Source: Laccaria trichodermophora (lineage: Eukaryota; Basidiomycota; Agaricomycetes; Agaricales; Hydnangiaceae). Taken from it: a DNA stretch of 64,000 nucleotides. Position numbers and translations under genes: made by a program. Location: positions 558,001-622,000 of the forward strand of contig JACTVC010000008.1 in the NCBI GenBank assembly GCA_018417955.1. The letters are read 5' to 3'. Below are positions 8,079 to 64,000 of this stretch, in pieces; position 1 is the first letter of the stretch; each line of letters starts with the position of its first letter. The notes beneath the pieces were generated by a model that worked only from the letters and a program-made list of their open reading frames with translations, was not told the DNA's origin and did not search any database.

Positions 8079-11000
8079 CTACTTGTCATCAGAAAACACC
8101 ATGGATTCCCATTCTTTCTTAGCTGCCTCGACATCATCTTCAGTGAATTGAATGGCCTGTGCCACCTCCGGGGCATCGGTGACTTTGGCATGTTTCCTGA
8201 AAGCGATGTGGATGAGGACGGGGAACAGCTTGTGCGACGATAACATACCTGGCCATTTTCAACATATGCTTGAGGAGGCGGGGAACAATGTCGGACTCCT
8301 TTGTCTTGTCGTCAAATACGATGAGTTGCTTGAGGTTTGTGGTGAATTTGGGCTTGTATGCTGCCATGGTGAAGGGGACATCAACATGTTTGCCAGTTTG
8401 CCACTCGTCAAGGCAATTTTCCACCTGCCAAAAAGGGATGAGGAGGTGCCACAATTGAAGGGATTAATGTGAACGTACCACCGTGATTGCAAGTGCCTTG
8501 GTCACCTTTGACAACATACCACCTTCAGAGAACTTGGGGTGAATAACACCATCATCGCTCTTGTTTTTGAACCAGGTTTTGTTGATGATTGATTGAAAAG
8601 CAGGGTGGCAGTAGATACCTTTGCGTTCCTACAAGTCCTACAGACGAAAGGATGGTAAAAGAGAAAAAACATAAAGAAATTGACGAACCTTGTACAAGAA
8701 GTTATTTCGAGTTTGGAGATCTTCGATAAGGTTCCTGATCTCACACTTGGGAGCATTGGGGTTGATCCCATAAGCTGCCTCAACAAGCAGTCGAGCAGTG
8801 GTCTTGAGATAGCCACGCACTTGGGATGCACGTGCTGTCATCTGTGGAATGTTAAGATAGATAGAAAGGATTGGTGGTGAACCATGCGCACCAATTTGAG
8901 TATATCCTCATCAAACTCAACACGGACTCCACATGCTGTACATGCCTCAACCCAAGCTGCAGTGGCGGCATCACGCTCCTCAAGATGGTCAGGATATGGT
9001 TGGACACCCCCGATTTGAGCGTGGTAGATGGAGATGGACTCTTCAAGGAGGGATTTGCTCAGTTCGTCGAAATCAGAAGCGCGAATATGCCCTCGCATTC
9101 CGCTTGTTTCCATTTTGTGTCACTTGATAATAACAGTGGTCGACGGTGCAGGGGTGACTGGACAATCCTTTCAAATGCGGGGGTTGGTGGCTGGCGTTAC
9201 AGCCTTAGTCTCCAGGAAGTTAGTAGTGAAGTGATAGATTGCACAGAATTACAATACTTTCCATTCCTCCACTGATTCCTACCGGATTCCGCGGATTCCG
9301 GCCAGAATCCAGGAATTCCGGCGGATTCCAGGAATTCCAGTAGGAATCCGACCGGAATCCGCAGGAATCCAACTGGAATAGACAGAAAATCTCATTATTT
9401 AGGTTATATTTCACTCTTCTATTTCAGACATACGTTTTGGAACAGGGGAATTGATGAAAATACACTTTAAATGTGACTTAATGTGCACTTATCAAGACCT
9501 CCTGAATTACTTATGCAATGTAGTCAACCAATCTATTATTCTATTCTATGTTGATAACTTAATCCTAAGAATTTCTTGTCACACTTAGATTTGAACAGAG
9601 AAAATTGTAGTATATTATATTCATTAGAACTACATAAATCTATTCTACAACATTGAGTGTTAAAGAACTACATACTCTACTACATGAGGGGGGGGGAGGG
9701 AGTGGTGGGGAGAGAGTGGTGGAGAGGAGAGATGGAGGGGGGATGGAGGGGAGGGAGTGATGAAGGGGGAGGGAGCAATGGAGGGGGAGGGAGGGGAGGG
9801 AGTGAAGGGGAGGGATGGAGAGAGGGAACAGGGGGGAGGGAAAAGGAAGGGGAGAGGGGAAAGGAAGAGGGAGGGATAGGGAAGAGGGTGGGCCGTCGTC
9901 GTCCGTTGACGTGCTCGTCGTCCGCTAACGTGCTCGTCGTCTGTTGACGTCGTCGTCGTCTATTGACGTGGGCGTCCGTTGACGCGGTCGTCGTCCGTTG
10001 ATGTGGTGGTGGTGTCGTCGTGGGCGTGTCGTTTGTTGGCGTGGCCCTCCATTGACGTGGTGAGGCGTGTCGTCGTCCGTGGGCGTGGTCATGGTGGTCG
10101 TGTGTTGACGTGGTTGTCCCTCGTCGTGTGCCTGGTGTTAGCAAGCTGGGTGGGACGAGCTTGGGACGGGGGTTGCTCACCTAGGACAACGAACGACGAC
10201 TTGCGTCGTTCGTCGTCTGGTTGCCACGTCGCTGATAGCGACGTGGCAACGTGTTGCCGCGCTCGTTTACTGGGGCTGGTGACGTGGCGTTGGGGCGTCG
10301 TTTCCCGCGTCGTGGCCGTGACGTTGTGTTAGAGGGTGGGGGTCGTGGTGAGAACGACGACGGACGTCGTCGTTCTCGTCGTCTTGTTGCCACGTCGCAA
10401 CGTGTCGTCGTCGTTACTGGTGATGTGGGCGTTGAGGCGTGGTGGTCGATCGGTGGCTGGTGTGCATGGTGGTGGCCGTTGGTGACGTGGTCATGTCGCA
10501 AGGTTGGTGGGCGTCGTGGACGATGGTGGTGGTGGTTGAGAGAGAGAGGGTTGTTTGCCGACGCTTGATTTGGGCATCAGGAATTCCGTTCTGTGTCGTT
10601 CCGGGAGCATTCCTTCCGGGTGATTCCTGGAACGATTTCGGCGGAATTTGAATTCCAGAAAAATTCCGCCGGAATGGTTTGATCAATTTGGCAGGGCCCT
10701 CTGCCAAATTTGATTCCTCCGGAATTCCAGGAATTCCGCGGATTCCGCCGGATTCCGGCAGGAATCAGTGGAGGACAATAAAGACCTCCAGAATTACATA
10801 CTGGTTTCACCAAGACGGCCTCAGTCATAGACCTTGGAAATGCTTCAAGATCAGGGTGTACTTGAGGGTACCTATATTCAGTCGGTTGTGGGTAGGTAAC
10901 ACCTGATAATTTCATCCCAAACTCGTCATCACTATCTGGGGAACAAACAAAAGTTAGACAATCATATGATCAGATAGGGAGAGACGTTCACCTTCAGCAT

Positions 11001-24253: not shown

Positions 24254-27200
24254 ATGGATTCTTCGTCATCCACCACGCTCCTGCCAAACGCTATCGGAAC
24301 CACCATATCTGGACAGCTCATAGCCGCTGGCCCCGATGTTGTTTTTCATGGCCCTCTGCCCGCTCCAAGTACGTCAAAGTTTTTTAATTCATCAATATGA
24401 CTCATGCAACTGATGATACATAGGTCTAGTGAGTTTGCTTAGGCCTGTCAGTAATGCTACACATACTCGCGCAGGTCACGTTGCTCGATGTGATCCTGGC
24501 ACTTGTTTGGAGGTAATTGCCCAGATCCGACAGCGGCTTGATGGCCATGACAATGAGAAGCGAGCCGTTGTCTGTTGGCTTAATGGACCAGCTGGCTATG
24601 GCAAATCTGCATTGGCGCAAACCATTGCGGAGCACTATGCTGCGGAGGGCCGCCTTCTAGGAAGCTTCTTCTTTTTGCGAGGGGCTGGTGAATGCAGCCA
24701 TATATCTCGCCTGATTCCTACTCTTGCCCATCAGCTCTCTCTCACTGTTCCTGGTGCAAAGCCATTCATTCAACATGCGCTTGAGGATGAGCCAGCCCTA
24801 CTTGGGTTGACTGTCTCTATGGCTCATCGACTTCAAAGACTTGTCATAGAGCCAATCCATCTCAACCCTTCACAAATCTCCTCTAGCTCTGTTGTTGTTA
24901 TTGATGCTCTTGATGAATGTGATGACAAAGCTGAGATGGCTGACTTCATTGATGTCCTGCTCAGTGCAACTTTTGGGAGGACACATTTTCCTTTCCGGAT
25001 TCTCCTCACCAGCAGGGTAGAGGAATATATTCGAAAAAAGTTTGATAGTTCTGAAGCTCATTTTTTACACCGTCTGGAGCTGCAGGATTTTGATGCTCAT
25101 CCTGACATCAAAATACATTCTCAGAGGGCATTTGATTCTATCTATAACCAAAATCGGCGAGTCATGCAGAAAATACAAAAGCCCTGGCCATCAACTGGAG
25201 AGCTCACTCTTCTTCTTGACAAGGCTGGTGGTTCATTTGCATTTGTTACTACATTACTCCAATGTGTTGGTGGAGATCCCATGCCACACAGAGCCTTGCA
25301 AAAACTTCTGGCATCAGATGCTAATGGCTTAGATTCACTCTATGAACAAGTTCTTGCTTCTGCTTCTTGGACAGAAGACTTCTGTCAGATTCTTGGAACA
25401 ATCATAGTTCTAACAGATAACAAATCTGTTTCCTTTCTCAGCTCTCTCCTCTCTCTTCAGCATGAGGACATCATTTGTAGGCTATTGCAAGTGCAGTCTA
25501 TTATCAAAATTCCTGGAGATGATGATAAGCCAATTATGCTCTATCACACATCTCTCCGGGATTTTTTGGCCATCCAATCACGATCAAAGCAATATTTTAT
25601 CAATCCTCCTCTGCAACATCTTCATCTAGCTGTACTGTCTTTGCAGCATCTGGTAAAACATCCTGTCAAAGACTTTTTTGAGGATGATTTGGCTGAGTAT
25701 GCTTCCCTTAATTGGCCACACCATATTCTTTTGGGATTCCAAAAGCAAGGATCAAATGTGGATGAAACAATCATGACCTCTTTGGTAACTCTCATAAAAA
25801 GCTTACTGATTTTTCACAGTAAAACATGGTATAATACTATACTGAATTTGAGGCCTTCTGAGATGGAAGGGATGTTAAGCTGTGTGAAGGATGGAAAGAT
25901 TTTGTTTCAGGTCAGTTATTGCAATTCTCTCAGATGGTTATCATTTCTTGACAGGTATAAGACATTGCAAGGGTCAATGATTACAAAGAATTTGATCAAG
26001 ATCTTTCAACAAGTCATTGATTTCTATGAAGTAAGAGTTTATAATGGAGATGTCTCAAGTTATTTATTGAGATCTTCCAACAGACAGTAAGTAACAGGAG
26101 TGTAATTCTGCTCACAAGTTAATCTGTAAGGTTAATAGGAGGTATGTGGTTCTATACAGTGATTAAGATGTATCAAAATAGCATATTGATTTGTTTTACA
26201 GGATGTAAGCCAAGTTATAACAAAATTTTATTGCTATTGATAAAGCACAGGAAGTAAGAACAAAACAATCATCAAGAGAAGAATAGATTTATTCTGATTG
26301 TTGTTTTTCTTGCAGAATGTATGTCTACAAATGGTTCAAGTTTTTATCTATTCTCATGGTTGTTATTAGTTTGTGGGCCAATATTTTGCATAACATGTCA
26401 CATCTTATCAGCAGCTGTCTGTTTCTTTCAGGAAGTAAGTGTTAACTGTTGACCTTGCTACTTGTACAGCTAATGTTCTTGTTTATGAATTCAGAAGGTG
26501 AAATATGGTCTATTTACATTGTCTCTGAATGAATACAAGGGATTTCTTTAGTGGGTAAGTTATTATTAAGTTTCTGAAATAACTATGTTCTGACTCAATT
26601 CTCTTCTACACCTACCATTTGCTAGATTGTGAGTTGTTCCCCTATTAACTATTAACTCATATGCTGACACATCCTCTGGCCTTTCCCTTTCTTGTGCACT
26701 GTTCTGGTGATTATGATGTGATTTTCTCTATTTCAGAAAGTATGCTTTCCTGCATTTGATTTTGCACCCTTCTAAAACATATGCTCTGGCCATTCTTTTA
26801 CAGAAGGTAAGTTGGTCTGGTTTTTGATATGCACTCTTCTGGTGAGACTGACTGTTGCCTGTCTTGTTTCAGGAGGTGAGTTGGCCTGTTTTTGATGTGC
26901 ACTCTTCTAGTGAGACTGACTGTGGCCTGGCTTGTTTCAGACAGTGAGTTGGCCTGGTTTTTAATGTGCACTCTTCTGGTGAGACTGACTGTGGCCTGTC
27001 TTGTTTCAGTTTGTGAGTTGGCCTGGTTTTTGATGTGCACTCTTCTAGTGAGACTGACTGTGGCCTGTCTTGTTTCAGTTTGTGAGTTGGCCTGGTTTTT
27101 GATGTGCACTCTTCTAGTGAGACTGACTGTGGCCTGTCTTGTTTCAGTTGGTGAGTTGGCCTGGTTTTTAATGTGCACTCTTCTGGTGAGACTGACTGTG

Positions 27201-29924
27201 GCCTGTCTTGTTTCAGGGGGTGAGTTGGCCTGGTTTTTAATGTGCACTCTTCTGGTAGGACTGACTGTGGCCTGTCTTGTTTCAGTCTGTGAGTTGGCCT
27301 GGTTTTTGATGTGCACTCTTCTGGTGAGACTGACTGTGGGCTATCTTGTTTCAGAGGGTGAGTTGGCCTGGTTTTTGATGTGCACTCTTCTGGTGAGACT
27401 GATTGTGGGCTGTCTTGTTTCAGAGGGTGAGTTGGCCTGGTTTTTAATGTGCACTCTTCTGGTGAGACTGACTGTGGCCTGTCTTGTTTCAGTTTGTGAG
27501 TTGGCCTGGTTTTTGATGTGCACTCTTCTAGTGAGACTGACTGTGGCCTGTCTTGTTTCAGTTGGTGAGTTGGCCTGGTTTTTGATGTGCACTCTTCTAG
27601 TGAGACTGACTGTGGCCTGGCTTGTTTCAGGATGTGAGTTGGCCTGGTTTTTTATGTGGATTATTCTGGTGAGACTGACTGTGGCCTGTCTTGTTTCAGT
27701 GGGTGAGTTGGCCTGGTTTTTAATGTGCACTCTTCTGGTGAGACTGACTGTGGCCTGTCTTGTTTTAGAGGGTGAGTTGGCCTGGTTTTTGATGTGCACT
27801 CTTCTGGTGAGACTGACTGTGGCCTGTCTTGTTTCAGATAGTGAGTTGGCCTGGTTTTCTTATATGCACTCTTCTGGTGAGACTGACTGGGGCCTGGCTT
27901 GTTTCAGGAGGTGAGTTGTCCTGGTTTTTAATGTGCACTCTTCTAGTGAGACTGACTGTGGCCTGGCTTGTTTCAGGATGTGAGTTGGCCTGGTTTTTGA
28001 TGTGCACTCTTCTGGTGAGACTGACTGTGGGCTATCTTGTTTCAGAGGGTGAGTTGGCCTGGTTTTTGATGTGCACTCTTCTGGTGAGACTGATTGTGGG
28101 CTGTCTTGTTTCAGAGGGTGAGTTGGCCTGGTTTTTAATGTGCACTCTTCTGGTGAGACTGACTGTGGCCTGTCTTGTTTCAGTTTGTGAGTTGGCCTGG
28201 TTTTTGATGTGCACTCTTCTAGTGAGACTGACTGTGGCCTGTCTTGTTTCAGGGGGTGAGTTGGCCTGGTTTTTGATGTGCACTTTTGTGGTGAGACTGA
28301 CTGTGGCCTGTCTTGTTTTAGAGGGTGAGTTGGCCTGGTTTTTGATGTGCACTCTTCTGGTGAGACTGACTGTGGCCTGTCTTGTTTCAGATAGTGAGTT
28401 GGCCTGGTTTTCTTATATGCACTCTTCTGGTGAGACTGACTGGGGCCTGGCTTGTTTCAGGAGGTGAGTTGTCCTGGTTTTTAATGTGCACTCTTCTAGT
28501 GAGACTGACTGTGGCCTGGCTTGTTTCAGGATGTGAGTTGGCCTGGTTTTTAATGTGCACTCTTCTGGTGAGACTGACTGTGGCCTGTCTTGTTTCAGTT
28601 TGTGAGTTGGCCTGGTTTTTGATGTGCACTCTTCTAGTGAGACTGACTGTGGCCTGTCTTGTTTCAGGGGGTGAGTTGGCCTGGTTTTTGATGTGCACTT
28701 TTGTGGTGAGACTGACTGTGGCCTGTCTTGTTTTAGAGGGTGAGTTGGCCTGGTTTTTGATGTGCACTCTTCTGGTGAGACTGACTGTGGCCTGTCTTGT
28801 TCCAGTTGGTGAGTTGGCCTGGTTTTTAATGTGCACTTTTGTGGTGAGACTGACTGTGGCCTGTCTTGTTTTAGAGGGTGAGTTGGCCTGGTTTTTGATG
28901 TGCACTCTTCTGGTGAGACTGACTGTGGCCTGTCTTGTTTCAGATAGTGAGTTGGCCTGGTTTTCTTATATGCACTCTTCTGGTGAGACTGACTGGGGCC
29001 TGGCTTGTTTCAGGAGGTGAGTTGTCCTGGTTTTTAATGTGCACTCTTCTAGTGAGACTGACTGTGGCCTGGCTTGTTTCAGGATGTGAGTTGGCCTGGT
29101 TTTTTATGTGGATTATTCTGGTGAGACTGACTGTGGCCTGTCTTGTTTCAGTGGGTGAGTTGGCCTGGTTTTTAATGTGCACTCTTCTGGTGAGACTGAC
29201 TGTGGCCTGTCTTGTTTCAGTCTGTCAGTTGTCCTGGTTTTTAATGTGCACTCTTCTGGTGAGACTGACTGTGTCCTGTCTTGTTTCAGTCTGTGAGTTG
29301 GCCTGGTTTTTAATGTGCACTCTTCTCACATACTCTCTCTTCTTACTTTTCTTAAGAAAGTATGTGGTCTTCCTGCATATCTTGTAAGTTTTATTTTGTA
29401 GCTTTCATTTTTCAATCTATATTTATTCAGTCATTGTTCTTTATCAGGTAATTAATGTTCAATCAATATCTTTTAAGGAGGTCAGTCAAGTTTAAGCATT
29501 CTGTAGACCAATTTTATAACATCTCTTCACTTCATTTTTTTAGAATGTAGGTTGTCCATTCACTCTCATTTCCATGACCCTGATATATGCTTATTCTAAC
29601 TCAGATTGTATGTTTTTATTTCTTGTTATAGAAGAATGCTCATGTTTTGTAGCTTGTATGTCTTTGATCCATTTCCAGATTCCAGCTCCCCTTTCAACCA
29701 TTCTTTTTGTTAGAAAGTATGTATTTCTTCACATTATTTAACCAGGTCACTTATTTCCAATATATAGTGGGCAAGTCAACTCTACTTTCTATCATTTTAG
29801 AATCTTTGATGTGATACAACTCTCCCATTTTTAGAGGGTATGCTTTTTTTCTTGCTGTTACCACTTACTCAATATTCATCTTCAAAATATACAGAGAGAC
29901 ACACAGCTATCTAGATTACAATGA
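24254..29924 (+). CDS. NACHT (STAND) NTPase with a 3' chain of one-codon microexons
   Basis: Exon 1 runs from ATG 24254 to 24368; intron 24369-24423; exon 2 runs from 24424 to 26030. Together they give 574 codons ending in phase 0. The NACHT domain has Walker A GPAGYGKS (residues about 93-100), Walker B VVVIDALDEC (about 195-204), the sensor-like LLTSR and the conserved YHTSLRDFL near 412. Such proteins are fungal NLR-like receptors, in several cases involved in non-self recognition or cell death. Usually the C-terminus is a repeat domain (WD40, ankyrin, TPR). Here 26031 starts an intron-like GTAAGA, followed by 55 candidate 3-nt exons (26084-29837) and a terminal exon 29895-29924 giving RDTQLSRLQ and TGA in the same phase. 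Predicted length if all are spliced: about 638 residues. Without splicing the frame stops shortly after 26086. The exon chain is an inference from splice-site spacing; the NACHT core is certain. Confidence 0.75.
26084..29837 (+). repeat. Array of 55 candidate single-codon microexons
   Basis: At 55 sites AG is followed by exactly three bases and then GT. Before the tandem array they start at 26084, 26139, 26202, 26251, 26316, 26370, 26432, 26495, 26552, 26626 and 26737; 37 lie between 26804 and 29292; then come 29357, 29478, 29544, 29605, 29653, 29714 and 29835. Donors are mostly GTAAGT, GTATGT or GTGAGT; acceptors are mostly TTTCAG, TTACAG or TTTTAG. Most intervening introns are 45-71 nt, the normal basidiomycete range; four are longer (about 108-118, 118 and 67 nt being ordinary or compound). 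Sixteen different triplets occur and none is a stop codon in the phase set by exon 2. Because every exon is one codon, skipping any subset keeps the frame. Confidence 0.65.
26807..29292 (+). repeat. 69-bp tandem array (66-nt intron unit plus 3-nt exon)
   Basis: Thirty-six consecutive units run from GT(A/G)AGTTGG to CTTGTTTCAG. Each contains the branch-site-like sequence GACTGAC about 25 bases before the AG and a pyrimidine run at the end. Most are exactly 66 nt (one of 65, three of 67). Variation within units is limited to a few positions (for example TTTTTRATG, CTRGTGAG, CCTGKCTTG), while the three bases between units take eleven forms: AAG, GAG, ACA, TTT, TTG, GGG, TCT, AGG, GAT, TGG and ATA. 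Longer blocks of about eight units (553 bp) are themselves duplicated. Confidence 0.92.
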
Positions 29925-30380
29925 GCCTATTTCTTTGCAAAATGTCAAGTTTTGTATGTATATTTATCTCTTTTATTTCTTGTTGTTCAACATCTCTATT
30001 CCTCTTAGTGGTTGCTACATCTCCTATACTAATGGTTTCTTTAACATGTTTATCATTGAGTAATGTAGATACCAAGGAGAAGCAAAAATTCTATGTACTC
30101 AGTTTCAGTTTCAGTCTCTTGTGGTGTATGTATATGACATATTCATTGCTGAGACTACCACCCTATAGCCTTGTGGCCTGGTTACTTACTGTCTGTTGGA
30201 AGATCTTGAAAAATTAGTGAAGATCCAATTTTAAACTCTTACTTCACAGAAATTAATAACTTGTTCAAATAACTTTATAAAAAATTTTGTAACAATTGAC
30301 CTCTGTCATATCTTATACATGTTTAGATTGTGATGACCATCTGAGAATTGCAGTAAGTGGCTGAAAACAAAGCCTTTCCA
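29925..30380. other. AT-rich region downstream of the NACHT gene
   Basis: A 98-residue hydrophobic ORF (29921-30217) is present, but without family resemblance and overlapping the proposed NACHT stop. I treat it as unsupported. The polyadenylation region of the NACHT gene should be here. Confidence 0.4.
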
Positions 30381-34463: not shown

Positions 34464-35664
34464 GAGGTCTTTATTGTCCTCCACTGATTCCTGCTGGAAT
34501 CCAGTGGAATCCAGGGAATTCCTGGAATTCCAGAGGAATCAAATTTGGCAGAGGGCCCTGCCAAATTGATCAAACAATTCTGTGGAATTTTGAATGGAAT
34601 TCAAATTCTGCTGGAATGATTCCGGTGATCACCTGAAAGGAATGCTCACGGAACAAGATGGAATGGAATTCCTGATGCCCCAATAAACAAACAACACCAT
34701 CTCTTTCAACCACCACCATCATCACCGACGCCTACACACCACGTTGCCAATGTCCACCACCACGCACACCAGCCACAATGAGACAACGATGACGGCCATG
34801 ATGTGGGAGACGATGCCTTGACACCACATCAACAACCCCAGTAAACGAGTGCAGCAACACGTTGCCATGTCGCTATCAGTGACGTGGCAACCAGACAATG
34901 AACAATGATTTCGTTGTTCATTATCTTAGGTGAGCACCCCCCCCAAACTCGTCCCAACCCAGCTCGCTAACGCCATGCCCACAATGAGGGATGCACAGCA
35001 CGCCAGCACACCACCACGCCAACACAACACCACCATGACCATGCCCACGGATGACGCACCCCACCACATCAATGGACCGCCACCACATCAATGGATGATG
35101 CCCACATCAACGGACGATGACCACCATGTCAGCAGATGACGACGCCCATGTCAATGGATGATGAGCACATCAGCAGACGACAACGATGACAACAGACAAT
35201 GACCACATCAACGGATGATGACGACCATGTCAGCAGACGATGACGCCCACATCAATGGACGACGATGCCCACATCAACGGACAACAATGCCCACATCAAC
35301 GGATGATGACACCCATGTCAATGGACGACAACAAGCATGTCAGCAGGTGACACCCATGTCAATGGACGACGATGAGCACACCAGTGACGCCAACAAATGA
35401 CACACCCATGACGACACCACCACCACGTCAATGGACAATGACTGCGTCAACAGATGCCCACGTCAATGGACAATGACAACATCAACAGACAACAAGCATG
35501 TTAGCGGATGACGAGCACGTCAATGGACAACGATGGCCCACCCTCTTCCCTATCCCTCCCTCTTCCTTTCCCTTCTCCCCTTCATTTTCCCTCCCTCCTG
35601 TTCCCTCTCTCCATCACTCCCCCCTCTCTTCATCCCTCCCCCTCACTCCCTCCCCTCACACTCA
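34464..35664 (-). mobile_element. CAATACTTT-type element, copy 3, reversed and truncated
   Basis: Beginning with GAGGTCTTTATTGTCC at 34464, the sequence is the reverse complement of the right end and interior of copies 1 and 2: ATTCC-rich end, the AATTTGGCAG...CTGCC palindrome, the ACGACG/ATGACG-rich section and the CCCTCC/CTCC tract, ending near the ACACTCAATGT motif. The AT-rich part and the CAATACTTT end are missing, and a decayed Gypsy element begins close to the break. Many CpG sites are changed to TpG/CpA compared with copies 1 and 2, so it is an older copy. Confidence 0.7.
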
Positions 35665-44166: not shown

Positions 44167-46189
44167 CAATACTTTACCCTCCCCAGGTTATTCCATGTGG
44201 AATCCATGGAATGGGGGGTGGACTGCAGAAATTCCAGATGGATTCCATGGAAGGGGGGATGGATTCCATGGAAGGGGGGGATGGATTCCATGGAATGGGG
44301 AATGGATTCCATGACTTTGGGGGATGGATTCCATGGAATGGCTGATGGATTCCATACTTCCCCCAGATGGATTCCATACTTTTTCACATGGATTCCATAC
44401 TTTTTCCACATGGAATCCATACTTTTTTCAGATGGAATCCATACTCTATTCTATATGTTCTATACCATTTTAAGGGTGGAATCCATATGGAATCCACATG
44501 GAATGACTTTATGAAATGATTCTAAGTTGAGCAGGAAAAATTGAAATGTATTAAATAGACTACACAATTTATTTTTACTATTCTCAATATTTAAGGGAGG
44601 GGGGAAGACAGGGGGAAGTGATGGAGGGGGGATAATGTAGTAGAGAGTGAGGGGGGAGGGAGGGGGAAGGAGTGATGGAGGAGAGAGGGAGTGGTGAAGG
44701 GAGGGAGTGGTGAAGGGTGAGGTGGGAATGGATGGAGGGGGGAGCAATGGGAGGGGGAGCAATGGAGGGAGGGGGAGAAATGAGGAGGGGGAGAAACAGA
44801 GGGAGGGAGGGGGGATGATGGAAGGGTGGTGGTGAGGAATGATGGAGGGAGGGGGAGCTCACCTGGGCTCGTCGTTGCCCATTTCTGTTGACGCGAGCGG
44901 AATCCTCCATGTGTAGGCACGCGTGCGTCGTCGTCAGTCATGGGTGGTGGGCTGTATTGGCATCCGTGGGGGTGGGTTGCCATTTCGTTCGTCTTCGCGT
45001 TGGCGTTGGCATTGCGCTCGTGGGTTTTCATTGTCGTGCATGGGCGTTCGTTGTCGCGTCGTGGGCGCTCGTGAGCAGTCGTTGTCGTGGGCGGGCGTTC
45101 GTGGGCGGTGGGGTCGTGTGGGGCAGTGGGCGTCGTTCGTGGGTGGGCGGATTTCGTCGTTGTCGTGTCATGGGCGGGCGTTGACGTTGGTGGGCGTTCG
45201 TGGTTGTGGCGTGACGTGGCACCGTCCTCAGTGTCGTGCCATTGTTGTCGTGTCTGCGCGCTCGTTTCTTTTCGTGGGCGCTCGTGGGCAGTGGGGGTCG
45301 CGTGGGGCCATGTGCGTTGTTTGTGGGTGGGCGGGCTCCTCGGTTGTCGTGTCGGAACGTCCCCGCGTCGTCGTCGTTGCCTCCCATCCGTGTGTCGTGG
45401 TACTTGGTTTGTTGTTGTCAAAAGGTGGACTGGGAGGGGTTACCCAGTCCACTTACCTGGGCTACAGTTGAGGCGGAACGTCCATTGACGTTCCGCGTCA
45501 TCGTTGTCGCCTCCCATCCATGTGACGTGGCGTTGCCACGTCGTGTGGCTCTTGCAATGGCGGGGTCGTTGTTGATGATGTTGCATGTCGTCGTGCGTCA
45601 TCAGCATCGTCGTCGTCGTCAGCGTGGTCGTCATCATGGTCGTGGTCGACGTCGATGTCACGGGCGGTCGTTGTGGCTTGAAACGGTGGGGTGGATGGTG
45701 ATGGTGGTGGTGGAAGGAAGAAACGACGTGGCATTGGCAACGCATCGTGTCACGTTTGAGACGCCACGTGACAAAAGGCGGTATATACATACCTTTACTT
45801 TATCCTATAATAATGCCTTTGTGGCTCAGTTGGTTTGAGCACTGCTAATATTGACGAGGCTGAGAGTTCAATTCCTGTAGATGTAAAATTTCTATTTTTA
45901 CTTAAATATAGTAAGGACACTATAAATACTGTATTCTAATGGTATAATGGTCATCCATGGAATCCATGTGGACTGCTCCATGGAATCCGAGGTGGATATG
46001 CCTGCATTCCATGTGGAATCCATATGGAATTAATCATTCCATGACCATTCCATGGTCATTCCATATGGAATCCATGAGATCTATGGAATAAGGAAATGGC
46101 TGGGTCCTCAGCCAACATTGATTCCATGGATTCCATATGGAATTATCCATGGATTCCATATGGAATAACCCGGGGAAGGTAAAAACCTC
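44167..46189 (+). mobile_element. CAATACTTT-type DNA element, second subfamily (2,023 bp)
   Basis: It starts CAATACTTTACCCTCCCC and ends GGGGAAGGTAAAAACCTC, with the 8-bp duplication GCGTGCTT on both sides (44159-44166 and 46190-46197). The end design is the same as in copies 1 and 2: the outer five bases differ (CAATA against GAGGT), then an inverted repeat (CTTTACC/TTTTTACC, CCCC, GGTTATTCCA). The outer 300 bp are made of GGAATCCATGGAATGG-like repeats instead of GGAATTCC repeats. The interior has the same order: purine tract (44590-44860), GTCGT/GTGGGCG-rich segment, and in addition a tRNA-Ile-like sequence. No transposase is encoded. Confidence 0.85.
45814..45885 (+). tRNA. tRNA-Ile(AAT)-like sequence, degenerate
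   Basis: The A box TGGCTCAGTTGG (45822-45833), the D arm pairing GCTC/GAGC, GCTAATA in the anticodon region as in tRNA-Ile, and the B box GAGTTCAATTCC (45864-45875) are in the correct order and spacing. Acceptor and anticodon stems do not pair well and a TTTTT run follows near 45895. It is more likely a tRNA pseudogene or SINE-like promoter captured by the DNA element than a working tRNA. Confidence 0.5.
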
Positions 46190-51699: not shown

Positions 51700-52070
51700 A
51701 TCATACCATGGTATTGCACTCTCATACCATACCATACCATACCATGGTATTGCACCCTCATACCATACCATACCATACCATGGTATTGCACCCTCATGCC
51801 ATACCATGCACCCTCATACCATACCATGCACCCTCATACCATACCATGTACCCTCATACCATACCATGGTATTGCACTCCTATACCATACCATGTACCCT
51901 CATACCATACCATGCACCCTCATACCATACCATGCACCCTCATACCATACCATGTACCCTCATACCATACCATGGTATTGCACTCCCATACCATACCATA
52001 CCATACCATACACCATACCATACCATACCACACCATACCATACTATACCACACCATACCATGGTATCAGG
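51700..52070. repeat. ATACCATACC minisatellite, left arm
   Basis: Tandem ACCATACCATG units, many joined to GTATTGCACCCTC or GCACCCTCAT in ~20-bp steps. ORFs over it give only His/Tyr/Pro strings. Confidence 0.85.
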
Positions 52071-52194
52071 AACCATAATTTATTTTTATTTAAACAGAGG
52101 AAGTCAGAAAACCCTCATTTCGAAGTTTGTTTACATATATTTACCAATAGCTTTGACCAAAGTGATGCTAAAATTTTGTAGTGTCCACTTTGAT

Positions 52195-52740
52195 GTACGC
52201 ACTATTTCCAAATTGGGCCATTTCCTAATTGGGAAAAGCGTTACACTTTTTTCTGCCACACCTAATGTCAGGCACAGTGTGCAGTTAAGTTGGGAACTGT
52301 TTCCCACGCTCTTTGGGCCACTGGAGTTAGTGGCTAGCTTAGTGTTGTCACTGTTCATGACAATGTCCGCACTATTTCCTAATTGGGCCATTTCCTAATT
52401 GGGAAAAGCGTTACACTTTTTTCTGCCATATCTAATGTCAGGCACACTGCGCATTTAGGTCAGGAACTATTTCCCACGCTCTTTGGGCCACTGGAGTTAG
52501 TGGCTAACTTGGTGTTGTCACTGTTCAGGACGATGTCCGCACTATTTCCTAACTGGGCCATTTCCTAATTCGGAAAAGCGTTACACTTTTTTCTGCCACA
52601 CCTAATGTCAGGCACAGTGCACATTTAGGTTGGGAACTGTTTCCCACACTCTTTGGGCCACTGGAGTTAGTGGCTAGCTTAGTGTTGTCATTGTTTATGA
52701 CGATGTTCGCATATTTCCTAATTGGGAAAGTCATTACATA
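52195..52740. repeat. ~182-bp tandem repeats, left arm
   Basis: Three units from GTCCGCACTATTTCC to GTGTTGTCACTGTTC, each containing TTTCCTAATTGGGAAAAGCG and TTTGGGCCACTGGAG. Two units in reverse lie at about 55205-55570. Confidence 0.85.
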
Positions 52741-55196
52741 ATATCAGTTTGGTTTGTACTGTCCGCTTTTTCACTACAAAAGTTTGTAGTGTCCGCTTTT
52801 TGGACAACAAATATTTGTAGTGTCCGCTTTTTAGACTACAAAAGTTTGTAGTGTCCGCTTTTTTCATTACAATGCTTGTAGTGTGTGCTTTTTAGACTAC
52901 AAAAGTTTGTAGTGTCCGCTTTTTTCATTACAATGTTTGTAGTGTCTGCTTTTTAGACTAGAAATGTTTGTAGTGTCCGCTTTTTGGACTACAAATGTTT
53001 GTAGTCTTTGCCCGTTTCATTATAATGTTTGTAGTCTCCGCTTTTTTCATTACAATGTTTGTAGTGTCCGCTTTTTAGACTACAAATGTTTGTAGTGTCT
53101 ACTTTTTTCATTACAATGTTTGTAGTGTATGCATTTTAGACTACAAATGCTTGTAGTCTGCGCTTTTTTCATTACAATGTTTGTAGTCTAAAAAGCGGAC
53201 AGTACAAATATTTGTAGTATAAAAAGCGCACACTACACACATTGTAATGAAAAGGGCAAAGACTACAAACATTTGTAGTCTAAAAAGCGGACACTACAAA
53301 CATAATGTTTGTAGTCTAAAAAGCGGACAGTACAAACATTTCTAGTCTAAAAAGCGGACACTACAAACATTGTAATGAAAAAAGCGGACACTACAAACAT
53401 TGTAATGAAAAAAGCGGACACTACAAACATTGTAATGAAAAGGGCAAAGACTACAAACATTTGTAGTCCAAAAAGCGGACACTACAAACATTGTAGTGAA
53501 AAAAGCGGACACTACAAACATTTCTAGTCTAAAAAGCGCACACTACAAACATTGTAATGAAAAAAGCGGACACTACAAACATTTGTAGTCTAAAAAGCGG
53601 ACACTACAAACATTGTAATGAAAAAAGCGGAGACTACAAACATTATAATGAAACGGGCAAAGACTACAAACATTTGTAGTCCAAAAAGCGGACACTACAA
53701 ACATTTCTAGTCTAAAAAGCAGACACTACAAACATTGTAATGAAAAAAGCGGACACTACAAACATTGTAATGAAAAAAGCGGACACTACAAACATTATAA
53801 TGAAAAGGGCAAAGACTACAGACATTTGTAGTCCAAAAAGCGGACACTACAAACATTGTAATGAAAAAAGCGGACACTACAAACATTGTAATGAAAAGGG
53901 CAAAGACTACAAACATTTGTAGTCCAAAAAGCGGACACTACAAACATTGTAGTGAAAAAAGCGGACACTACAAACATTTCTAGTCTAAAAAGCGCACACT
54001 ACAAACATTGTAATGAAAAGGGCAAAGACTACAAACATTTGTAGTCCAAAAAGCGGACACTACAAACATTGTAGTGAAAAAAGCGGACACTACAAACATT
54101 TCTAGTCTAAAAAGCGCACACTACAAACATTGTAATGAAAAAAGCGGACACTACAAACATTTCTAGTCTAAAAAGCGCACACTACAAACATTGTAATGAA
54201 AAGGGCAAAGACTACAAACATTTGTAGTCCAAAAAGCGGACACTACAAACATTGTAGTGAAAAAAGCGGACACTACAAACATTTCTAGTCTAAAAAGCGC
54301 ACACTACAAACATTGTAATGAAAAAAGCGGACACTACAAACATTGTAATGAAAAGGACACTACAAACATTATAATGAAAAGGGCAAAGACTACAAACATT
54401 TGTAGTCCAAAAAGCGGACACTACAAACATTTGTAGTCTAAAAAGCGGACACTACAAACATTGTAATGAACAAAGCGGACACTACAAACATTATAATGAA
54501 AAGGGCAAAGACTACAAACATTTGTAGTCCAAAAAGCGGACACTACAAACATTGTAATGAAAAAATCGGACACTACAAACATTGTAATGAAAAGGGCAAA
54601 GACTACAAACATTTGTAGTCCAAAAAGCGGACACTACAAACATTGTAGTGAAAAAAGCGGACACTACAAACATTTCTAGTCTAAAAAGCGCACACTACAA
54701 ACATTGTAATGAAAAAAGCGGACACTACAAGCCTTTGTAGTCCAAAAAGCGGACACTACAAACATTGTAGTGAAAAAAGCGGACACTACAAACATTTCTA
54801 GTCTAAAAAGCAGACACTACAAACATTGTAATGAAAAAAGCGGAGACTACAAGCCTTTGTAGTCCAAAAAGCGCACACTACAAACATTGTAGTGAAAAAA
54901 GCGGACACTACAAACATTTCTAGTCTAAAAAGCAGACACTACAAACATTGTAATGAAAAAAGCGGACAATACAAACATTTGTAGTCTAAAAAGCGCACAC
55001 TACAAACATTGTAATGAAAAAAGCGGACACTACAAACTTTTGTAGTCTAAAAAGCACACACTACAAGCATTGTAATGAAAAAAGCGGACACTACAAACTT
55101 TTGTAGTCTAAAAAGCGGACACTACAAATATTTGTTGTCCAAAAAGCGGACACTACAAACTTTTGTAGTGAAAAAGCGGACAGTACAAACCAAACT
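52741..55196. repeat. Central ~30-bp minisatellite with an orientation switch
   Basis: Left of about 53187 units read GTTTGTAGTGTCCGCTTTTT; to the right they read AAAAAGCGGACACTACAAAC. They are interspersed with CATTGTAATGA or CATTTGTAGTC. The right side is about four times longer, so the array expanded after the inversion formed. Confidence 0.9.
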
Positions 55197-55689
55197 GATA
55201 TTATGTAATGACTTTCCCAATTAGGAAATATGCGAACATCGTCATAAACAATGACAACACTAAGCTAGCCACTAACTCCAGTGGCCCAAAGAGTGTGGGA
55301 AACAGTTCCCAACCTAAATGTGCACTGTGCCTGACATTAGGTGTGGCAGAAAAAAGTGTAACGCTTTTCCCAATTAGGAAATGGCCCAATTAGGAAATAG
55401 TGCGGACATCGTCCTGAACAGTGACAACACCAAGTTAGCCACTAACTCCAGTGGCCCAAAGAGCGTGGGAAATAGTTCCTGACCTAAATGCGCAGTGTGC
55501 CTGACATTAGATATGGCAGAAAAAAGTGTAACGCTTCACCCAATTAGGAAATGGCCCAATTAGGAAATAGTGCGTACATCAAAGTGGACACTACAAAATT
55601 TTAGCATCACTTTGGTCAAAGCTATTGGTAAATATATGTAAACAAACTTCGAAATGAGGGTTTTCTGACTTCCTCTGTTTAAATAAAAA

Positions 55690-56115
55690 TAAATTATGGT
55701 TCCTGATACCATGGTATGGTGTGGTATAGTATGGTATGGTGTGGTATGGTATGGTATGGTGTATGGTATGGTATGGTATGGTATGGGAGTGCAATACCAT
55801 GGTATGGTATGAGGGTACATGGTATGGTATGAGGGTGCATGGTATGGTATGAGGGTGCATGGTATGGTATGAGGGTACATGGTATGGTATAGGAGTGCAA
55901 TACCATGGTATGGTATGAGGGTACATGGTATGGTATAGGAGTGCAATACCATGGTATGGTATGAGGGTGCATGGTATGGTATGAGGGTGCATGGTATGGT
56001 ATGAGGGTGCATGGTATGGCATGAGGGTGCAATACCATGGTATGGTATGGTATGGTATGAGGGTGCAATACCATGGTATGGTATGGTATGGTATGAGAGT
56101 GCAATACCATGATAT
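55690..56115. repeat. ATACCATACC minisatellite, right arm (reversed)
   Basis: GGTATGGTAT units with GAGGGTGCAT and GAGTGCAATACC spacers, the mirror of 51700-52070 and slightly longer. Confidence 0.85.
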
Positions 56116-59290: not shown

Positions 59291-60485
59291 TCGGCTCGTT
59301 TCGTAAAATGCCTTTGGCAGAATTCGCTCTTGTTTGCTGAACAGTCGACATCGGGGTATTTTCTGTCAGAGAAATTGGTTGCTATTCAAACTGTTAGATG
59401 CGAATCAGAGCGTCATAGTGGTGAGGAAGGTCTTACGGGGAAGGTTTTTGGAGGTTGTAGCCCGTTTGAACGTTCTATGAGCCCATGCTTCAATTGCCAA
59501 GGCCAGCTGATGTTGGATTTCGCCCCAGAACGCTCGCCTCAGGCCTCAGCGAGAGGTGCATTTCTAGAACCCAGTGACCCACAAGAGTTCGCTCAGTAGC
59601 ACAAGTTGATGTTGGTGGCATTTAAATTTAGAAGCAGAACGTCTGAAGGGGTTTCGTCTCCCGATTACAATTCCGACAGCGAATTCTCACAACTGATCTC
59701 CGACTGATCACCTCTTCTTCATCGACTACGACGACCACAAGACCTATCCATGTCTTTAGCCTTCCGACTTTCCTAGTCTCCATATTACAAGACGTCATTT
59801 CACTCATGGATTCGTCAAGAGCCGCACAGCTGCAAAACGCTATTGGAACCACCATATCCGGAAGAGCACAGCTCATAAACGCCGGCCGCGATGTTGTTTT
59901 TCATGGCCCTCCGCCAGTTCCAAGTACATCAAAGTTTTACAATCCATTAATACTGCTCATATAATTGATGACATGTAGGTCTAGCCAGCTTGCTTAGTCC
60001 TGTCAGCAATGCTACACACACTCGCGCAGGTCACGTCGCTCGATGTGACCCTGGGACTTGTTTGGAGGTCATTGCTCAGATCCGGTGGTGGCTCGATGGC
60101 CATGGTAATGATGAGCGAGCTGTTGTCTGTTGGCTTAATGGGCCAGCTGGCTATGGCAAATCGGCATTGGCACAGACCATTGTGGAGCGCTATACTGCAG
60201 AGGGCCGCCTCTTAGGGAGCTTCTTCTTTTTGCAAGGGGCTGGTGAACGCAGCCATATATCTCACCTGATTCCTACTCTTGCCCATCAGATCTCTCTCAC
60301 TGTTCCTGGCACAAAGCCATTTATTGAATGTGCTCTTAAGGATGAGCCAGCCCTGCTCGGGTTGACTGTCTCTATGGCCTATCGACTTCAAAGGATCATC
60401 ATAGACCCACTCTATCTCAACACTTCACGAACCTCCTATAGCTCTGTTGTTGTTATTGATGCTCTTGATGAATGTGATGATAAAG

Positions 60486-62007
60486 CAATACTTTCCATTC
60501 CTCCACTGATTCCTACTGGAATAGACAGAAAATCTCATTATTTAGGTTATATTTCACTCTTCTATTTCAGACATACGTTTTGGAACAGGGGAATTGATGA
60601 AAATACACTTTAAATGTGACTTAATGTGCACTTATCAAGACCTCCTGAATTACTTATGCAATGTAGTCAACCAATCTATTATTCTATTCTATGTTGATAA
60701 CTTAATCCTAAGAATTTCTTATCACACTTAGATTTGAACAGAGAAAATTGTAGTATATTATATTCATTAGAACTATTCTACAACATTGAGTGTTAAAGAA
60801 CTACATACTCTACTACATGAGGGGGGGGGAGGGAGTGGTGGGGAGAGAGTGGTGGAGAGGAGAGATGGAGGGGGGATGGAGGGGAGGGAGTGATGAAGGG
60901 GGGAGGGAGCAATGGAGGGGGAGGGAGGGGAGGGAGTGAAGGGGAGGGATGGAGAGAGGGGAGAGGGGGGAGGGGGGAGGGAAAAGGAAGGGGAGAGGGG
61001 AAAGGAAGAGGGAGGGATAGGGAAGAGGGTGGGCCGTCATCGTCCGTTGACGTGCTCGTCGTCCGCTAACGTGCTCGTCGTCTGTTGACGTCGTCGTCGT
61101 CCATTGACGTGGGCGTCCATTGACGCGGTTGTCGTCCGTTGACGTGGTGGTGGTGTCGTCGTGGGCGTGTCGTTTGTTGGCGTGGCCCTCCGTTGACGTG
61201 GTGAGGCGTGTCGTCGTCTGTGGGCGTGGTCGTGGTGGTCGTGCGTTGACGTGGTTGTCCCTCGTCGTGTGCCTGGTGTTAGCAAGCTGGGTGGGACGAG
61301 CTTGGGATGGGGGTTGCTCACCTAGGACAACGAACGACGACTTACGATGAACGACGACTTGCGTCGTTCGTCGTCCGGTTGCCACGTTGCTGATAGCGAC
61401 GTGGCAACGTGTTGCCGTGCTCGTTTACTGGGGCTGGTGACGTGGCGTTGGGGCGTCGTTTCCCGCATCGTGGCTGTGACGTTGTGTTAGAGGGTGGGGG
61501 TCGTGGTGAGAACGACGACATCCGTTGTCGTTCTCGTCGTCTTGTTGCCACGTCGCAACGTGTCGTCGTCGTTTACTGGTGATGTGGGCGTTGAGGCGTG
61601 GTGGTCGATCGGTGGCTGGTGTGCATGGTGGTGGCCGTTGGTGACGTGGTCATGTCGCAAGGTTGGTGGGCGTCGTGGACGATGGTGGTGGTGGTTGAGA
61701 GAGAGAGGGTTGTTTGTTCTTGACGCCCAAATCAAGCGTCGGTGTTTGCCGACGCTTGATCAAACACCGACGCTTGATTTGGGCATCAGGAATTCCGTTC
61801 CGTGTCGTTCCAGGAGCATTCCTTCTGGGTGATTCCTGGAATGATTTTGGCGGAATTTGAATTCCATCAAAATTCCGCCGGAATGGTTTGATCAATTTGG
61901 CAGGGCCCTCTGCCAAATTTGATTCCTCTGGAATTCCAGGAATTCCGCGGATTCCACCGGATTCCGCCGGATTCCGGCAGGAATCAGTGGAGGACAATAA
62001 AGACCTC
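60486..62007 (+). mobile_element. CAATACTTT-type DNA element, copy 2 (1,522 bp)
   Basis: Nearly identical in order and sequence to the element at 9252-10788. It is flanked by TGATAAAG (60478-60485 and 62008-62015). The empty site is preserved in block A (GATGACAAAGCTGAG at 24921), which proves the insertion. It lacks part of the ATTCC-rich left end and has an added TTGATCAAACACCGACGCTTG-like palindrome near 61735-61780 (named here only by position). Confidence 0.93.
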
Positions 62008-63167
62008 TGATAAAGCTGAGATGGCAGACTTCATTGATGTCCTGCTCAGGGCTTCTTCTGGGAGGACTTGTCTTCCTTTCCGAATTCTCCTCACAAGCAG
62101 GGTAGAGGAACATATTCGAAAAAAGTTTGATAATTCTCACTCTTGGTTTTTGCACTGTCTGGAGCTAGAGAATTTTGATGCTCGTCGGGACATTGAAATA
62201 CATTTTCGGAGTGCATTTGATTGCATCTATAATGAAAATTGGCAAATCATGCAGAGGATCCCAAAGCCCTGGCCATCAGCTCAAGATCTCATTACACTTC
62301 TTGACAAGGCTGGCAGTTCATTTGCATTTGCTACTACATTGATCCAATGTGTTGGTGGAGATCTCATACCACACAGGGCCTTGCAAAAACTTCTGGCATC
62401 AGGAGCTAATGGTCTGGATTTACTCTATGAACAAGTCCTCTCTTCTGTTTCTTGGACAGAAGACTTCTGTCAGATTCTCAGAACAATCATGGTTCTAAAG
62501 GATAACAAATCCATTTCCTTTCTCAGCTCTCTCCTCTCTCTTCAGCATGAGGAGGTCATTTGTGGGCTATTGCAAGTACAGTCCATTATTAGATTCCTGG
62601 AGATGATGATACACCAATTGTGCTCTATCACACATCTCTCCAGGATTTCTTGGCCATCCAATCACGATCAAAGCAATATTTTATCAATCCTCCTCTGCAA
62701 CACCTTCATCTAGCCATGCTGTCTTTGCAGCATCTGGTAAAACATCCTTCAAAAGACTTTTTTGAGGGTCATGTGGTCAAGTATGCTTTCTTTAATTGGC
62801 CACACCATATTCTGTTGGGATTCCAGGAGCAAGGATCAAATGTGGATGAAACAATTACAACCTCTTTGGTAACCCTCATTACAAACTTACTGATTTTTCA
62901 GAGTAAAACATGGTACAACACTATGCTGAATATGAGTTCTGGTAAAAGGGAAGGGATGTTAAGCTATGTGAAGGATGGAAAGATTTTGTTTCAGGTCAGT
63001 TATTGCAATTCTCTCAGATGGTTATCATTTCTTGACAGGTATAAGACATTGCAAGGGTCGATTATTACAAAGAATTTAATCAAGATATTTCAACAAGTCA
63101 TTGATTTCTATGAAGTAAGAGTTTATAACGGAGATGTCTCCAGTTATTTATTGAGATCTTCCAACAG

Positions 63168-63959
63168 ACAGTAAGTAACAGGAGTGTAATTCTGCTCACA
63201 AGTTAATCTGTAAGGTTAATAGGAGGTATGTGGTTCTATACAGTGATTAAGATGTATCAAAATAGCATATTGATTTTTTTACAGAATGTAAGCCAAGTTA
63301 TAACAAAATTTTATTGCTATTGATAAAGCACAGGAAGTGAGAACAAAACAATCATCAAGAGAAGAATAGAATTATTCTGATTGCTGTTTTTTCTTGCAGA
63401 ATGTATGTCTACAAATTGTTCAAGTTTTTATCTATTCTCATGGTTGTCATTAGTTTGTGGGCCAATATTTTGCATAACATGTCGCATCTTATCAGCAGCT
63501 GTCTGTTTCTTTCAGAAAGTAAGTGTTAACTGTTGACCTTGCTACTTGTACAGCTAATGTTCTTGTTTATGAATTTAGAAGGTGATATATGGTCTATTTA
63601 CATTGTCTCTGTATGAATATAAGGGATTTCTTTAGTGGGTAGGTTATTATTAAGTTTCTGAAATAACTATGTTCTGACTCAATTCTCTTCTACACCTACC
63701 ATTTGCTAGCTTGTGAGTTGTTCCTCTATTAACTATTAACTCATATGGTGACTCATTCTCCAGCCTTTCCATTTCTTGTGCACTGTTCTGGTGATTATGA
63801 TGTGCTGTTCCCTATTTCAGAAAGTATGCTTTCCTGCATTTGATTTTGCACACTTCTAAAACACATGCCCTGGCCATTCTTTTATAGAAAGTGAGTTGGT
63901 CTTGTTGTTGATATGCACTCTTCTGGTGAGATTGACTGTGGCCTGTCTTGTTTCAGAAT
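63168..63959 (+). repeat. Thirteen candidate one-codon microexons of the second NACHT gene
   Basis: AG-three bases-GT sites start at 63168, 63223, 63285, 63334, 63400, 63454, 63516, 63579, 63636, 63710, 63821, 63888 and 63957. They are collinear with the first thirteen of block A. Five of the thirteen triplets differ. The 69-bp array begins at the window edge. Confidence 0.65.
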
Positions 63960-64000
63960 GTGAGTTGGCCTGGTTTTTAATGTGCACTCTTCTGGTGAGA

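Follow-up and report, generated by a model that had tools for sequence, protein, structure and literature searches.

The 64,000-nt stretch of DNA analysed here (hereafter, the window) contains a NACHT gene whose C-terminal tail appears to be assembled codon by codon. We consider it very probable (about 0.88) that this gene belongs to a family of NACHT proteins, of the NOD-like-receptor type, in which the tail would be spliced from exons of exactly one codon each, 56 of them in this copy and all in phase 0. From the comparative patterns among related loci, we infer that these exons are spliced in vivo and that all of them are included.

The window gene lies on the forward strand and consists of three ordinary exons, a chain of one-codon exons, and a terminal exon with an in-phase stop. 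Exon 1 (24254..24368, 115 nt) encodes a short N-terminus, MDSSSSTTLLPNAIGTTISGQLIAAGPDVVFHGPLPAP, that is similar to the N-terminus of the Laccaria amethystina models P0001 and P0050. Exon 2 (24424..25910), the boundaries of which were taken from relatives, encodes the NACHT/NPHP3_N NTPase region (Pfam matches: NPHP3_N 2.7e-24, NACHT 1.2e-10) and closes with the residues LFQ. The 51 nt that follow (25911..25961, gtcagt...tataag) are read as a likely intron because their length varies among the 16 paralogs and because P0050 runs LFQ-TSQGS; the length happens to be a multiple of three in the window copy. Exon 3 (25962..26030) contributes 23 codons, TLQGSMITKNLIKIFQQVIDFYE, and ends in phase 0. 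The ordinary exons thus sum to 1671 nt, or 557 codons, with phase 0 at the last base. The original prediction had also arrived at a phase-0 end, but from two conventional exons totaling 1,722 nt and 574 codons, which our three-exon model replaces. Its terminal exon was located correctly, with nine residues (RDTQLSRLQ) followed by TGA in phase 0 at 29895..29924, and the complete predicted protein comprises 557 + 56 + 9 = 622 residues. A Pfam scan of this spliced protein (cut-off E 10, though filters remove most matches above 0.1) found no ankyrin repeats and, more broadly, no protein-level WD, ANK, or TPR repeats. The N-terminus encoded at 24254-24368 (NAIGTTISG...AGPDVVFHG) is a candidate for the amyloid-type signalling motifs that PMC9815663 describes in Agaricomycetes; amyloid signalling has been proposed for agaric NLRs with N-termini of this type.

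Between exon 3 and the terminal exon, direct reading, a regular expression, and a chain search identified 56 sites of the form AG-NNN-G(T/C) at 26084-29837, comprising 12 before a tandem array, 36 within it, and 8 after it. The 12 pre-array exons (26084..26806) read ACA GAG GAT GAA AAT TTT GAA AAG TGG ATT AAA AAG (TEDENFEKWIKK) and are separated by introns of 46-108 nt. The array itself (26807..29356) is a clean tandem repeat with a 69-bp period, in which introns of ~66 nt alternate with 36 variable one-codon exons (26873-29292; ETFFLGSRRFLDWRIEDRRFGRIEDFGRLRIEDWSS). The 8 post-array exons (29357..29837) are conserved and read AAA GAG AAT ATT CTT AAA TGG AGG (KENILKWR), with introns of 45-118 nt. 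Among these, the TGG at 29768..29770 was placed by alignment and is followed by a GC donor (gcaagt), a feature that recurs at all 16 family loci. This exon is the addition to the 55 sites of the original prediction, whose chain is confirmed; sites do occur both inside and outside the array, as had been claimed, but the split of 37 and 18 becomes 36 and 20 on recounting.

The chain of one-codon sites is a real feature of the sequence that exceeds chance. Before the array, the count of AG-N(k)-GT is 13 at k=3 and 1-8 at the other k (0 to 15); with introns of 42-80 nt, the longest chain there has 10 sites at k=3 and no more than 2 at other k up to 12. This pre-array chain of 10 compares with a maximum of 4 in 2000 Markov sequences, and the post-array chain of 5 with a maximum of 3 in 2000. 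An enrichment of the AG-NNN-GT spacing, which had been proposed as a check on the original prediction, is therefore seen over both other spacings and Markov sequences. Across 26-30 kb, the longest chains have 39 sites (k=3) and 38 sites (k=7), and no other k in the range 0-12 exceeds 2; the k=7 chain is read as an echo because the array donor GTGAGT has a second GT four bases on. In the other 4-kb bins of the window, on both strands, chains do not exceed 3, except at 60-64 kb (10), which is the site of a second family member. A branch-site motif was not enriched in the 12 pre-array (p 0.17) or 7 post-array introns (p 0.69) of the window gene.

The same architecture recurs in the source genome (59.0 Mb, 77 contigs), where a protein search listed 80 NACHT matches, several of which may fall in one locus. 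Flanks were examined at 16 loci, at C76:1094915, C1:1631693, and C13:634-635 kb, at a partial match on C20, and at four distant loci, L035-L038, with 1.5 kb of flank each, using a chain search whose scoring was set by hand and was blind to stop codons. At the 16 loci, which include the window gene, a chain lies downstream of the NACHT gene on the same strand, and two more diverged loci extend this paralogous NACHT family. NACHT exons are ~61-85% identical to the window copy at the protein level where they can be aligned in one piece, and the closest named proteins are from Laccaria amethystina, with up to 77% identity (best 120 of 328). The TGG-GC-donor motif is found once per locus in all 16 (12 exact, 4 with one mismatch), while elsewhere there are two matches with two mismatches, and a reversed control gives one. 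Every complete chain requires a GC donor for the conserved TGG; additional GC donors are found in g76_885 (three) and in g23_525 and g23_855 (one each). By sequence only, the longest chain in the family is that of g12_1261, with 96 one-codon exons by script and 7 by eye, or 103.

Chain integrity can be compared with the condition of the NACHT exon at each locus. Where the NACHT exon is open (eight loci), the chain is always unbroken and followed by a terminal stop, in a tally that counts g76_885 with its three extra GC donors and g12_1261 with its last seven sites by eye. The NACHT exon is broken by a stop or frame break in the other 8 of 16, and the triplets of these loci are still free of stops; the chain or terminal exon is also broken in five of these eight by hand tally (g76_321, g34_1141, g23_525, g34_292, and g76_620). 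The last of these is the second family member within the window (59972..64000, forward strand, cut by the window end), with a one-codon chain that starts with ACA at 63168. Its NACHT exon is interrupted by a repeat-rich insertion of ~1.5 kb (roughly 60495-62000), with inverted ends recognized by eye. In Laccaria amethystina, the model P0050 (K443DRAFT_683576) runs ...DFCE-T-VSNRR..., which looks as if exon 3 had been joined to the first one-codon exon (T) and the next donor then read through. The start of the chain seems, on this sequence comparison, to be present but misannotated in this second species.

Elsewhere in the window, downstream of the gene, the minus strand at 30228-30366 carries part of the exon 3 region in inverted orientation, ~77% identical; such a partial copy likewise lies downstream of five other C76 loci. 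Mirror-like tandem repeats occupy 51700-56100 in the TRF table (5-bp, 170-bp, and 31/61-bp arrays, then complementary ones), looking like a palindrome of ~4 kb. Similar G-rich and CGTCGTCCGTTGACGTG-type repeats recur in the same table at 9690-10060, 35060-35640, 44650-44810, and 60820-61200, suggesting copies of one transposable element.

Coding constraint is apparent in the absence of stop codons from the triplets. In phase 0, none of 631 triplets across the 16 loci is a stop, against 48.8 expected from column composition and a minimum of 32 in 5000 within-gene permutations; this set retains g34_1141, whose chain ends after 10, and g23_525, whose chain ends after 37. The claim that no triplet of the window gene is a stop also holds across the 16 loci. 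In the other phases of the concatenated triplets, stops are present (25 of 615 in phase 1 and 97 of 615 in phase 2). Where triplets are common by descent, the counts are not independent; the absence of stops persists when identical units are collapsed (0 of 554, 42.5 expected) or when each triplet is counted once per gene (0 of 277, 18.3 expected). A further 55 triplets, from the C1 paralog, the degraded C76 paralog, and the end of g12_1261, likewise hold no stops. The codons CAG, AAG, GAG, TTG, TGG, TCA, and TAT are all used among the 631, while TAA, TAG, and TGA never are. The spacing is equally specific: at the 16 loci, TTTYAG-N(k)-GTGAGT has 285 occurrences with k=3, a single one with k=0, and none with any other k up to 12, and the looser YAG-N(k)-GTRWGT has 461 with k=3, 9 with k=0, and at most 34 with any other k up to 40.

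Alignments of the regions flanking the array (16 loci pre-array; 15 post-array, with g12_1261 left out) show how triplets, splice sites, and introns are conserved. None of the 63 triplet columns has a gap; gaps affect 7 of 171 columns at splice sites and 242 of 1075 in the remainder of the introns. Identity is 0.92-0.95 for donors and 0.93-0.94 for acceptors, as opposed to 0.75-0.76 for introns. Post-array triplets are 0.86 identical, compared with 0.75 for their introns; pre-array triplets, at 0.72 compared with 0.76, are therefore conserved no better than the surrounding introns. Individual residues at both ends of the predicted tail are fixed. Position 2 is E and position 9 is W in 14 of 14 loci, a count that omits g76_321 and g34_1141 because their chains are broken, while I, L, W, and R near the tail end are found in 13 of 13 genes, omitting g12_1261, g34_1141, and g23_525 because their scripted chains fall short of the end. 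The tail consensus starts with TENENFKKW-K and passes through a variable middle to an end reading KETILKWR, followed by a RETQL-like sequence. Among the 15 loci examined for the terminal exon (all but g34_1141), 13 have a phase-0 stop after 5-9 codons, and the two that do not both have broken NACHT exons. At the conserved ends, 49 single-step codon pairs gave no significant excess of conservative substitutions (mean BLOSUM 1.14 vs 0.80, p 0.15). A coiled-coil or amphipathic-helix tail was considered and rejected, as there was no common period and none of 15 whole tails fell below p 0.13. Among 10 array parts, helical periodicity gave p 0.02 for g12_1261 and p 0.06 for g76_296, with nine above 0.05.

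The diverged C1 paralog (C1:1631693), with a NACHT region 48% identical and carrying an in-frame stop, has a chain and no tandem repeat by TRF. It holds 30 consecutive one-codon sites; 28 of the introns between them measure 47-69 nt and the remaining one 103 nt, and three of its TGG sites have a GC donor. The C1 tail has no significant DNA similarity to the three tails with which it was compared (blastn best E 0.059), while its predicted peptide, KEMQNWNNWIGPITPSWHNGIPKEIIIQWQ, agrees with the family consensus at 7 of 19 positions (p 6.5e-5), and none of 200000 permutations attained its frequency score. A branch-site motif is enriched in its introns (p 0.0035). The second diverged locus, C76:1094915, is degraded and has 9 + 9 sites; a decayed C13 relative has 3 and the partial C20 relative 2. 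At the four distant NACHT loci (33-35% identical), chains of only 1-2 were found in the 1.5 kb of flank of each.

Variation within the arrays is concentrated on the triplets. In the 10 loci with at least 6 modal-length units, pi is 0.38-0.87 in triplet columns, against intron means of 0.02-0.19, and 25 of the 30 triplet columns belong to the three most variable columns of their unit, the remaining five ranking 5th to 8th. The tandem units are thus near-identical at the DNA level only. Where units share identical flanking introns (~132 nt), the triplet differs in 30 of 54 pairs (56%), and where flanks have at most one difference, it differs in 85 of 119 pairs, 51 of these at all three bases. 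These pairs are non-independent, and the result rests mainly on two loci because g76_519 and g76_296 give 59 of the 60 pairs listed. Across the 13 loci whose array introns are 66 nt long, identity between the intron consensus sequences is 0.91-1.00. Codon vocabulary is limited: the CpG observed/expected ratio is 0.0 in the window array and both flanks (26032-29900), in comparison with 0.69 for the whole window, and C is the third base in only 1 of 631 triplets, which together would explain the limit. The absence of CpG at 26032-29900 is what methylation-driven loss in repeats would give.

These patterns also bear on other ways of reading the locus. One large intron (26031-29894), or a non-coding minisatellite whose repeat unit happens to carry splice-like motifs, would mean that the triplets never enter the mRNA. 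Such a reading accommodates the clean 69-bp periodicity of the array and the fact that joining exon 3 directly to the terminal exon, with the entire chain skipped, also keeps the frame because every chain exon is 3 nt. It is likewise in line with the protein database, which returned no spliced tail: a search with regions of the spliced protein found none among 65 candidates at E up to 10, and a profile of 10 tails, with 763 candidates, had a single match, P0121, which is genomic read-through. What it does not account for is that stops are missing in one phase only, that triplets are gap-free between conserved splice sites, that both tail ends carry conserved residues, and that the C1 paralog has its 30 sites with no repeat. 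The unit is not one without coding constraint, and we reject a minisatellite or single large intron on the phase-specific absence of stops, the gap-free triplets, and the repeat-free paralog, rating this reading as highly improbable; the view that simple minisatellite duplication is insufficient was well founded. With the tail read as coding, annotation probably misses such tails, since they were not found in the protein database searched. A mobile 66-nt intron inserted repeatedly between the codons of an older, continuous tail, in the manner of introners, would directly give near-identical introns around unrelated codons, and array introns are indeed far more alike between loci (0.91-1.00) than neighboring introns are (0.75-0.76). 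However, the array intron has 332 genome matches from 16 candidate places, and among the matches listed all are in these NACHT loci, with no near-identical introns in unrelated genes. Insertion would not be expected to produce exact one-codon spacing in one phase, the pattern also holds between introns of unrelated sequence, and duplicated blocks of several intron-codon units can be seen in the window copy. We consider such an invasion improbable.

The one-codon exons may instead be real and serve mainly as an alternative-splicing device, with varied subsets per transcript providing a repertoire within one individual. This overlaps with the explanation that we prefer and differs from it in where diversity arises. 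Every exon is 3 nt, meaning that any subset would remain in frame. Four papers (PMC3689799, PMC4986451, PMC10197012, and PMC9815663, citing Iotti et al. 2012) attribute codon-sized microexons of 3 bp, numbered as multiple, tens, or dozens, to the NACHT-ANK genes of Tuber melanosporum and describe their alternative splicing, and reviews ascribe a repertoire of this sort to the truffle family. Conserved donors and acceptors and invariant residues at fixed positions favor constitutive inclusion of the tail ends, and we regard splicing as the main source of diversity as unlikely.

On the preferred reading of a tail assembled codon by codon, a tandem array with a unit of one intron and one codon carries the middle of the tail. 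Recombination would draw on homology in the DNA repeat, which would then be spliced out, leaving a peptide without protein repeats; the introns are proposed in this role because those of the array are near-identical both at a given locus and from locus to locus, whereas the codons vary. Units and loci probably exchange sequence through the introns, with selection maintaining the diversity of codons. Any gain, loss, or exchange of units would alter whole residues and always keep the frame, as would the skipping of any one-codon exon, and differing codons inside near-identical introns could allow a receptor to change residue by residue. In fungal NLRs, the C-terminal repeats are described as hypervariable and exchanged (PMC4986451); by analogy, sensing would fall to the tail here, and a link between the tail and recognition diversity is plausible. 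Recombination as the motor, selection for diversity, and a role in recognition are what we infer from these patterns. A possible, tentative extension, to which we would give somewhat less than even odds, is codon-cassette diversification: with spliced-out introns as a recombination framework, units that are otherwise identical would swap individual codons as 3-bp cassettes. In this basidiomycete, the sequence and length of tails would then change without frameshifts and without repeats in the protein, perhaps by a route independent of the truffle genes.

The truffle genes are a precedent for this architecture, which the original prediction had taken to be undescribed; that part of its interpretation falls, while the one-codon phase-0 exons stand on the comparison of loci. 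According to the published descriptions, the truffle system resembles ours in an expanded NACHT family and in 3-bp exons said to diversify the C-terminal recognition part. It differs in belonging to an ascomycete and in being named for ANK, whereas no ankyrin repeat was found in the predicted window protein. Dozens of 3-bp exons are likewise present here at the level of genome sequence (56 in the window gene and 103 in g12_1261). The repeats of fungal NLRs (WD, ANK, and TPR), according to PMC4986451, share tandem units homogenized by exchange, few hypervariable positions per unit, and varying unit number, but in our family the conserved framework is the intron, and each unit would contribute just a single codon to the protein. 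The micro-exon genes of Schistosoma mansoni, as described in PMC10526429, also have chains of very short exons, mostly in multiples of three, that yield variable proteins; unlike here, their exons span 3-81 bp or, in another passage of that paper, 6-81 bp (mostly 15), their introns 0.1-5 kb, and the proteins are secreted. Fungal introner-like elements (PMC4457414) likewise involve multiplied similar introns, but the present ones were found, among the matches listed, in one gene family only and lie one codon apart. A 1-nt exon in Fusarium CYP621A (PMC12940212) and a 3-bp exon in Drosophila homothorax (PMC7392893) are examples of a tiny exon being spliced, as we propose, but each is single rather than part of a chain. 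Basidiomycete P450 genes have ordinary microexons (PMC1184071). In the open-licence literature, among the matches listed, we found chains of one-codon exons reported neither from Laccaria nor from any other basidiomycete. What is apparently new is the occurrence in a Laccaria-like agaric of up to 103 one-codon exons, with ankyrin repeats not found and homogenized introns surrounding differing codons.

Codon-sized NLR exons would thus exist in a mushroom lineage too, either as an ancient device or through a second origin, and some 100 consecutive one-codon exons would be an extreme case of splicing. More generally, the homogenization of introns around differing codons makes the generation of diversity in fungal NLRs testable.
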